Source: Psychrobacter okhotskensis
GTDB taxonomy: Bacteria; Pseudomonadota; Gammaproteobacteria; Pseudomonadales; Moraxellaceae
DNA length: 64,000 nt
NCBI RefSeq assembly: GCF_013248965.1
Contig: NZ_JABRVQ010000002.1
Span: 62,001-126,000, forward strand
Direction: 5' to 3'
A program made the translations under genes and the position numbers. The notes beneath the pieces are model-generated. The model ran no database searches. It saw only the letters and a program-made list of their open reading frames with translations, and had not been told where the DNA came from. This document shows, piece after piece, positions 34,007-61,776 of this stretch. The first letter of the stretch is position 1. Each line of letters starts with the position of its first letter.

Positions 34007-34275
34007 TAGGGCGTGTTGAACATTCGATCATGGCACTGACAGAGACTGTTTTTTAGGCGATTCAAAGATAAAAATAGTAAGTTTAGTCATTCTAAGCGCC
34101 TCTTTTTATCAAAGAATCAGCAAAAAATAGTCCTGTCCTTTTAGGCTGATGCTAAAATTGCCCCATACTGTGTTGCAAGTCTAGCTAAGATATCAACATA
34201 ATCTTCGACTTGCGCCGTGTCTGGAACAATTTTAGCGATCAGCAGTGTCCATTTATGAATGTTCAACACGCCCTA
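34007..34275. mobile_element. Family 2 miniature inverted-repeat element, copy 1
   Basis: 269 bp bounded by TAGGGCGTGTTGAACATTC and its near-exact inverse, with TA at each outer edge. No ORF. The right half (34144-34245) folds into a long imperfect hairpin whose tip arms are GCAAGTC and GACTTGC. It shares ends, internal boxes and hairpin layout with the copy at 61496-61776. Confidence 0.85.
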
Positions 34276-60065: not shown

Positions 60066-61442
60066 TCAAAACAGCCGACTGATATCATTACCAATTGCTA
60101 ACACCATGAAACCTGCCAGCAAGAGTAAGCCGATATTTAGCCCTACCATTTGTACCCCTTCCGACAGAGGCTTACCGCGTATCAGCTCTATGAGATAATA
60201 CACAATATGACCACCATCTAACACTGGAATCGGTAAAAGATTGAGTACGGCGAGGCTCAGGCTAATCAAAGCCGCGGTGGACAATACCATCTGCCAACTG
60301 ATATCAAAGCTTTGTTTGGCGACTTTAGCAATCGTAATCGGCCCTGATAAATTGTCTAGACCAATCATACCTGAGATCATCTTGCCCATTGAGCTAACCG
60401 TCATCACTGCCAATTGTTCCGTCTTTTCAAACGACTTAACCAATGACTCACTCGGGCCATATACGATGGTGGTTTTATAGGCATCGGGAACGATAATCTC
60501 AGACTTCGCCACCATAGCACCAATCTGTCCAAAGTCATTACCTAGATTGTCTTTTTTACCTTGCGGCATAATCTGAAGCTGTACGGGTTTACCCTCACGC
60601 AATACGGTGAAATTAAGCAAGGTCTCAGGATTGTCACGGATGATACGGGTGACACTGATCCAATCTTTGATTTCTGTATCATTGATAGCCGTAATGAGAT
60701 CACCAACTTGCAGACCTTGACGACTGGCAGCACCATCAGCACTCAAATCGCTAACGATTGGTTCAATCTGCGGCTGCCATGGTAGCATGCCAAAGCTGGT
60801 TAGCGCGTCCTTACCTTGCGCGTCGCCTTGCATAAATGCTTTAACAGGTGCTTGATAAGTCTTCGTTGCGTTGGGAGCCTGTGACTCTGATTGCAAGGTA
60901 ACGCTGACATTATCAGTCTCGCCCATTCGTCCAGCAAGGCGATAATTGATACCTTCCCACGTTTGTACCTCATGGCCGTCAATCGCGACGATTTTATCAC
61001 CAACGGGTAACTGCGCCATAGCCGCTGGTGTATCGGGTAATACTTCACCAATCTTCGTCGCCAACTGCTCTGATGGCGTCATAAATAACACCCAAAACAA
61101 CGCAATCGCGATAACAAAGTTCATGATAGGGCCAGCGGCAACGATGGCAATCTTTTTTAGTGGATGTTGACGATTAAAGGCCAAATGTAGCTCATCTTTG
61201 GCTACCGCGCCTTCACGCTCATCCAGCATCTTGACATAACCACCCAACGGCAGCGCTGAGATACGATAATCAATACCGCTCTTTTTGCTCGTCCAGCCAA
61301 AAAGCTTGGGGCCAAAGCCGATAGAGTATGTCAGCACCTTGACGCCGCAGAGCCGTGCGACAATGTAATGACCCCATTCGTGTAAGGCAATAAGCGGACC
61401 TAAGACAAATATTGCCGCAAGGAGCGTTAATAAAAACGTCAT
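60066..61442 (-). CDS. rseP: RIP zinc metalloprotease RseP
   Basis: Intramembrane site-2 protease that cuts the anti-sigma factor RseA to activate the envelope stress response and removes leftover signal peptides. The zinc motif is HEWGH (His21, Glu22, His25) in the first helix, the third ligand lies in LPIPVLDGGH (near residue 400), and two PDZ domains lie between. Length is 458. It is downstream of dxr, but a family 2 element intervenes. Confidence 0.96.
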   Translation of the reverse strand: MTFLLTLLAAIFVLGPLIALHEWGHYIVARLCGVKVLTYSIGFGPKLFGWTSKKSGIDYRISALPLGGYVKMLDEREGAVAKDELHLAFNRQHPLKKIAIVAAGPIMNFVIAIALFWVLFMTPSEQLATKIGEVLPDTPAAMAQLPVGDKIVAIDGHEVQTWEGINYRLAGRMGETDNVSVTLQSESQAPNATKTYQAPVKAFMQGDAQGKDALTSFGMLPWQPQIEPIVSDLSADGAASRQGLQVGDLITAINDTEIKDWISVTRIIRDNPETLLNFTVLREGKPVQLQIMPQGKKDNLGNDFGQIGAMVAKSEIIVPDAYKTTIVYGPSESLVKSFEKTEQLAVMTVSSMGKMISGMIGLDNLSGPITIAKVAKQSFDISWQMVLSTAALISLSLAVLNLLPIPVLDGGHIVYYLIELIRGKPLSEGVQMVGLNIGLLLLAGFMVLAIGNDISRLF

Positions 61443-61495: not shown

Positions 61496-61776
61496 TAGGG
61501 TCTGTTGAACATTCAAATGTGGTACTGGCAGCGTCTATTTTTTAGACAATACGCAGTGAAATTTTTGACGCCTAGTCGTTCTAGGGTAGACAATTTCGCC
61601 ATGTATTGGCAAAAAATAGCCCTGCCCTGAAAGGCTGATACTAAAATCACCCCAAACGTTGTTGTAAACCTAGCTAAGGTCTCGACATTATCGTCGGTTT
61701 ACGCCTGATTTGATAAAACGTTTGGGACGATTTTAGCAATCAGCAGTCCTAATATTTGAATGTTCAACAGACCCTA
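61496..61776. mobile_element. Family 2 miniature inverted-repeat element, copy 2
   Basis: 281 bp bounded by perfect 23-bp inverted repeats starting TAGGGTCTGTTGAACATTCA, with TA at both outer edges. No ORF. The right half (61633-61745) forms a hairpin with arms sharing GCTGAT, CTAAAATC and CCCAAACGTT, ending in tip arms GTAAACC/GGTTTAC. It fills the dxr-rseP gap. Confidence 0.9.

Follow-up and report, generated by a model that had tools for sequence, protein, structure and literature searches.

A four-armed mobile element of Psychrobacter retains its fold through compensatory change, concentrated in lineages that went on spreading

A dispersed element of about 270 bp, two copies of which lie in the window (the whole 64,000-nucleotide stretch of Psychrobacter okhotskensis DNA analysed here), has a body that folds as a four-way junction of paired arms. 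Compensatory changes have preserved this fold in Psychrobacter, and a separate set of copies from other genera of the family shows the same. They fall chiefly on lineages of copies that went on spreading, whereas resident copies decay. We lean towards the view that the element is a non-autonomous IS5-family element (a MITE) in which selection for the element's own propagation maintains the fold, with DNA more probable than a single functional RNA strand as the form in which it acts. That a recently mobile element has a fold under selection, working as DNA or as RNA, had been proposed from the letters of the window (the original prediction); the covariation and the insertion sequences (ISs) with such ends described below support that proposal.

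The Element in the Window

The host of the window is a 3.38-Mb draft genome (G000) in 74 contigs. The features of the two copies and of the neighbourhood of copy 2 are as follows.

34007–34275, plus strand: element copy 1, with CG-type ends, 269 bp, folding as copy 2 does
34033–34137, plus strand: arm P2 of copy 1 with the five preceding bases, matched by covariance model R1 (111.6 bits)
60066–61442, minus strand: flanking gene for an RseP-type protease (TIGR00054)
61496–61776, plus strand: element copy 2, of the TC-type-end subfamily, 281 bp including the TA at each end
61496–61518, plus strand: left terminal inverted repeat of copy 2, one strand of stem P1, 23 bp, matching the right end perfectly
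61527–61626, plus strand: arm P2 of copy 2, a long stem with apical TAGTCGTTCTA
61627–61633, plus strand: arm P4 of copy 2, a small variable arm, CTGAAAG
61634–61744, plus strand: arm P3 of copy 2, with stems GCTGAT/ATCAGC and CTAAAATC/GATTTTAG and tip GTAAACC/GGTTTAC
61754–61776, minus strand: right terminal inverted repeat of copy 2, the other strand of stem P1
61794–63014, minus strand: flanking gene dxr (1-deoxy-D-xylulose-5-phosphate reductoisomerase), co-directional with rseP

Both copies lie where they had been placed (34007–34275 and 61496–61776, the terminal TA included), and they are 68% identical. No open reading frame (ORF) of at least 100 amino acids overlaps either of them, and copy 1 sits between two plus-strand ORFs. 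The 23-bp ends of copy 2 had been called perfect, and TAGGGTCTGTTGAACATTCAAAT is indeed the exact reverse complement of the opposite end (23/23). The tip arms also read as described, GCAAGTC/GACTTGC in copy 1 and GTAAACC/GGTTTAC in copy 2, and the lower stem differs by a paired T-A to C-G swap between CTAAAATTG..CAATTTTAG in copy 1 and CTAAAATC..GATTTTAG in copy 2. The original prediction spoke of a hairpin; pairing is kept as it said, but the single hairpin gives way to a four-way junction with two long arms, a small variable arm, and a terminal stem. At the dxr–rseP site, P. glaciei KCTC 42280 (L140) also carries a copy, while the gap in 29 relatives is too short for the element, with junctions too diverged for a base-exact comparison.

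Copies and Insertion Sites

A search of the host genome with copy 2 found 25 near full-length copies including itself, the others being 84–97% identical to it, together with five more full-length copies at 68–69% (copy 1 among them) and fragments. In a first survey by DNA similarity, the element occurred in 24 of 57 genomes, all of them among the 36 of the same genus, and the 21 genomes of other genera gave no match by this measure. A pattern for the right arm occurred in 93 stretches of named genomes, and all 80 of those listed belong to Psychrobacter. With regard to carriers, the same pattern gave 0 viral stretches, and blastn with copy 2 gave no plasmid match.

The Psychrobacter set used below comprises 149 distinct full-length copies from the fetched loci, of which 90 representatives share less than 96% identity. 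TA is present at both ends of 133 of the 149 copies, and a target duplication longer than TA fits only 1–2 of 148. A and T are favoured around the TA, AT-TA-AT being the commonest site. Twenty copies lie at locus edges; among the remaining 129, classified with crude ORF calls, none is inside a called ORF; the neighbouring genes are co-directional for 79 copies, convergent for 24, and divergent for 26.

Fold and Covariation within Psychrobacter

Compared with dinucleotide shuffles, the two copies fold as RNA with z of -11.5 and -12.2, and copy 2 folds as DNA with z of -11.9. The Psychrobacter structure is comprised of a terminal stem P1, a short P1b, the arms P2 and P3, and the small P4. Arm P2 consists of stacked stems with apical TAGTCRTTCTA; R1, a covariance model of this arm built from 48 copies (its E-values are rough), matches copy 2 at 61522–61626 with 108.8 bits. 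The P4 region varies from 2 to 69 nt across copies, 9 nt being the commonest length. A long form of P4 (about 64–69 nt) was seen in Psychrobacter loci L089–L094, L098, and L099, several of which carry a GCAAAGCAnTGCTTTGC palindrome that has no match within the window. No Rfam family reached its gathering score in the window and none appeared up to E 1 in 10 further element loci; one sub-threshold microRNA match fell at the element (E 0.4).

The original prediction called for many copies to be collected, aligned, and examined for covariation, and the resulting signal is strong. On a tree of the 90 representatives, the 66 inner pairs underwent 41.5 two-sided changes that keep Watson–Crick pairing, against 0.8–3.0 when the 3′ partner was slid by 1–3 positions; the structure was derived from these same Psychrobacter copies, which itself favours it over the slid versions. 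When the same substitutions were rethrown on the tree 200 times, the mean was 2.3 and the maximum 8, compared with 42 observed. Sixty of the 149 copies were aligned with MAFFT; in this alignment, 93.4% of cells are paired, two-sided cells number 342 against 38–71 with slid partners, and the covariation score is 0.252 against 0.048–0.068. RNAalifold on this alignment gave 58 pairs, 29 of them with two-sided changes, and recovered P1, P1b, P2, and P4 but, of P3, the tip without the stems; an earlier run on 90 sequences had recovered the fold only in part. Among the 90 pairs listed, an all-pairs covariation test with a tree null placed four at E 0: two end pairs (7-264 and 6-265), the cross-talk between them (7-265), and pair 58-107, where GU predominates and which lies outside the proposed structure. 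Since the deep subfamily split blurs this test, the named structure was tested instead, followed by an independent set from outside the genus.

The Element beyond the Genus

R1 has matches in 45 of 60 Psychrobacter genomes. Across the family, it matches 84 of 199 genomes in 5 of 16 genera, 36 of these genomes being outside the genus; the own genus accounts for 48, g36 (probably Acinetobacter) for 32, g31 for 2, and g26 and g30 for 1 each, and some matches are weak (E near 1e-4). From 12 matched genomes, 30 out-of-genus loci were sampled. They contained 24 full elements of 262–335 bp (20 of them 268–271 bp), mostly with GGGTCTGTTGACATTTC-like ends; three loci of g31 gave 206-bp elements, and three others remained unresolved. 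One of the out-of-genus copies, L325, includes a stretch similar to the long P4 form.

RNAalifold on the 24 full copies, with Psychrobacter sequence left out, gave the same four-way junction, with 93 pairs, 95.2% of them canonical, and 51 pairs with two-sided changes; two-sided cells number 206 against 23–40 with slid partners. P2 is a biased test here because the loci were found with the P2 model. For P1b, P3, and P4 alone, which the search model does not use, two-sided cells number 71 against 8–13. A search with one out-of-genus copy gave 5 partial matches in plasmid-collection records, all from Acinetobacter baumannii; of two such A. baumannii records, L352, a plasmid stretch, holds the right part of the element only, and L353 holds a fuller element with an arm-model match of 28.5 bits.

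Candidate Parent Insertion Sequences

In complete genomes of relatives, inverted pairs of the element ends occur 863–864 bp apart with a transposase between them. The transposase of this 863-bp IS, which has CG-type ends, matches NF033580 (transpos_IS5_3) with 251.1 bits, the cut-off being 110, and has the Pfam domains DDE_Tnp_1 and DUF4096; the IS may belong to the IS427 subgroup. A transposase-coding IS5-family IS with such ends, of the kind that the original prediction had suggested looking for as a parent, exists in other Psychrobacter genomes. When both window copies were compared with it by blastn (below E 0.01), only the ends matched. The element is not an internal deletion of the 863-bp Psychrobacter IS (MITE type I), its body being unrelated, and since only the ends are common to both, the copies are not mere diverged ends of an ordinary IS, a doubt that the original prediction had itself raised.

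A transposase related to that of this IS at E 1e-20 or better is present in 40 of 60 genomes of the genus, yet the host genome has no match at this level despite its many element copies. Arm and transposase occur together in 28 of the 60, the arm alone in 17, the transposase alone in 12, and neither in 3. Their presence shows no positive association in these 60 genomes; draft genomes may lose ISs. Most IS copies listed carry TA at their ends. One (L209) combines a TC-type with a CG-type end, and none of the IS copies examined has the TC type at both ends. The IS copies at L083:1753-2616 and L084:5876-7650 include one with its transposase split over two frames and one that encloses a second, different transposase-like ORF pair. 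An IS630-type parent, suggested by the TA target, was also considered and rejected: DDE_3 has 3 matches in the host genome, and the element ends are absent from the surrounding stretches (L086–L088).

Exchanged Ends

The body of the element is joined to other ends as well. The element at L047 (G025) has the body of the family between TAGGGGCTGTATAGAATTC ends, and the same ends flank a second IS of 866–869 bp (L264, L265, L275), the transposase of which is 51–52% identical to that of the 863-bp IS. Eight full elements with TAGGGGCTGTATAGAATTC-type ends occur in the fetched loci. The body of L273 is closest to that of L046, which lies in the same genome and has other ends (89%); for L274, the nearest body is one of CG type (79%); L260, L277, L278, and L291 are 93–96% identical to the other-ended bodies L179, L190, or L123 and 94–97% to each other; and L047 and L271 are closest to one another (93%) and then to CG-type bodies (81–83%). 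An end variant, GGGCGTGTTTGATAATTC, is found in L123 and L190.

A third end type occurs on ISs of 862–863 bp in Acinetobacter plasmids; ISs with GGGTCTGTTGACATTTC-like ends occur in A. johnsonii (863 bp) and in A. ursingii (862 bp), where the IS is annotated as ISAba31 family. In agreement with this, the published ISAba31 is 858 bp long, has the ends GGGTGTGTTGACACTT / AAGTGTCAACAGACCC, and makes a 2-bp duplication given as AT (PMC4776018). Because the same body occurs with three or more end types, and each of these is found on a different IS5-family IS, the ends appear to have been exchanged, presumably at least three times judging from the sequence comparisons.

A broader history is possible, although we hold it with some doubt: a long-lived, independent selfish nucleic-acid lineage, with a conserved four-armed core and not a broken IS, would persist across the genera of the family by taking up the ends of whatever IS5-family transposase is available, and its fold would itself take part in transposition, either as extruded DNA or as an RNA that the element makes.

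Compensation in Spreading and Resident Copies

Parsimony counts on the tree of mobile copies, in which recombination is ignored, separate terminal from internal branches. Among the 149 copies, terminal branches carry about 200 one-sided losses of inner pairs (GU 80, AC 68, other 52) against 13 two-sided changes that keep the pair, and internal branches about 71 against 28. On branches of at least 0.06, 14.9 pairs were kept and 6.4 lost on internal branches (n = 6), compared with 4.2 kept and 54.6 lost on terminal ones (n = 11; p about 2e-8 in a Fisher test with the counts rounded). In 74 copies that form seven tight clusters, singletons in the stems, ends included, comprise 26 AC, 30 GU, and 28 other changes, and only 3 of 87 are compensated; the 25 copies of the host genome, with 4 of 35, are somewhat above this pooled value. 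Between subfamilies, three overlapping comparisons of three consensuses gave 30 pair changes that are two-sided and paired, 5 that are one-sided and still paired, and 10 that are unpaired in at least one consensus. The original prediction had regarded many uncompensated arm changes as telling against a selected fold. They do prevail where resident copies have mutated recently (84 of 87), though not when old lineages are compared, a combination that fits a fold under selection during spread.

Two explanations that place the cause elsewhere bear on these counts. According to one, no selection is involved, and the complementarity of the arms is kept by template switching between quasi-palindrome arms during replication. 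The element is strongly palindromic and arms can be deleted in place (a 38-bp remnant stands where a related strain has 281 bp). Yet resident copies on long branches lose pairs without being corrected (4.2 kept, 54.6 lost), of the 29 branches on which a two-sided change kept the pairing, 23 show this at one pair alone (in one reconstruction), A-G mismatches persist at pairs 42-122 and 54-111 in about 40 of 90 representatives, and the conserved unpaired positions would be left unexplained by arm copying. Given the persistent mismatches and the uncorrected resident copies, plain palindrome correction is rejected as the main cause, and we regard template switching in general as improbable.

The other invokes the tolerance of the host: intergenic insertions would survive only if folded, for example by avoiding transcription termination, so that folded variants come to dominate. 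Placement between genes, often co-directional ones, and the use of both orientations agree with this, but such a filter should protect resident copies, in which recent stem changes of every class have gone almost wholly uncompensated (AC 26, GU 30, and other 28, with 3 compensated); we give it little credence.

DNA or RNA

More probable than these is a reading in which the element works when transcribed, in trans or within host transcripts, with pairing selected in RNA, although we still consider it unlikely. It draws on the very stable RNA folds, on unpaired positions that are conserved across genera, and on the placement of copies, none of the 129 classified by crude ORF calls being inside an ORF and 79 being between co-directional genes. 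In five of six consensuses the plus strand is the more stable, by 0.2–9.2 kcal/mol, and the three subfamily consensuses favour GU over AC by 10 to 2. The out-of-genus copies have 63 GU against 42 AC cells, in a structure that allows GU. In addition, a terminator-like site lies inside copy 2 on the minus strand (61636–61618) and three promoter-like sites lie in or near the element, the expected numbers being 0.3 and 1.1. NEMIS and ERIC are also reported to be active in transcripts (PMC2229807).

Against a transcribed role, one-sided changes to GU and AC are about equal per event (80 to 68 on terminal and 19.4 to 26.6 on internal branches), orientation between co-directional genes is unbiased (38 versus 41 copies), the g36 consensus is more stable on its minus strand, and there is no Rfam family. 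The strand tests lose force if RNA made from both orientations counts. On balance, neither strand is clearly preferred, although the data lean weakly to the plus strand. A strand-specific RNA finds no support in the per-event counts, but since the weaker measures lean to the plus strand it is disfavoured rather than rejected.

A role as DNA is favoured because no strand is clearly preferred. Under this preferred reading, the element would be a MITE mobilised in trans by DDE transposases of the IS5 family with TA as their target, and its fold would be selected because it raises the element's own success. The fold would most likely act as DNA, its arms being extruded to form hairpins or a cruciform when the DNA is single-stranded or supercoiled, and might bring the ends together or recruit a host factor. 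From the conserved body, the exchanged ends, and the link of compensation to spread, we infer that the fold serves the propagation of the element. The body of a MITE is commonly regarded as filling between borrowed ends, but here it is the body that is conserved and the ends that are exchangeable. The retention of the fold along spreading lineages makes the role of secondary structure in the mobility of bacterial MITEs directly testable, and the exchange of ends suggests a route by which such elements could outlive any one transposase.

Comparison with Known Elements

Like IS5-family MITEs, the element has TA at its ends, and these ends resemble the termini of an IS of about 860 bp from the same family. 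It differs from them in a body unrelated to the IS (the 863-bp IS being the one tested), in a length and fold conserved across genera, and in its several end types. NEMIS/Correia, RUP, ERIC, RPE, and CIR resemble it in being short, dispersed, and non-coding, with bodies that can fold; of these repeats, RUP shares the TA and has ends resembling those of a resident IS, and CIR is described as two arms plus a linker (PMC2229807). They are given there as about 105–155 bp, whereas the present element has about 270 bp, a four-way junction, tested covariation, and exchanged ends. Another review reports stable stem-loops in the transcripts of MITEs (PMC10969869).

MITEAba12, known from Acinetobacter and one Moraxella osloensis genome, is also non-autonomous, with hosts in the same family and a DDE-transposase IS as the proposed mover. 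It differs in its 113 bp, GGCTTTGTTGCACAAA ends, 9-bp duplication, and little diverged copies (PMC6382973). The element is not MITEAba12, as ends and length differ and no sign of a 9-bp duplication is present. No printed description of the element family appeared among the papers listed by searches of the open-licence literature, those with end sequences included, which led to ISAba31. Primers of a Legionella study (lpg2920-21) carry TAGGGTCTGTTGAC, perhaps an IS5-type end or a chance occurrence (PMC12457610, in its primer details).

Arm-less Derivatives

Seven miniature derivatives of exactly 66 bp (L256, L257, L258, L259, L073, L078, and L082) consist of two ends without arms, with at least two different junctions; the fetched loci were partly picked for such ends, so this count is biased. 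In the host genome, the 38-bp remnant (L076:1364-1401) occupies a site where Psychrobacter sp. APC 3426 (L134) has a full 281-bp element with flanks 99–100% identical, and it likely lost its arms in place. If such arm-less derivatives of 38–66 bp move, the arms would be dispensable. At L077:409-602 (G000:C6:93208-93401), eight copies of the 25-bp end repeat stand in tandem, the last of them being the end of a full element.
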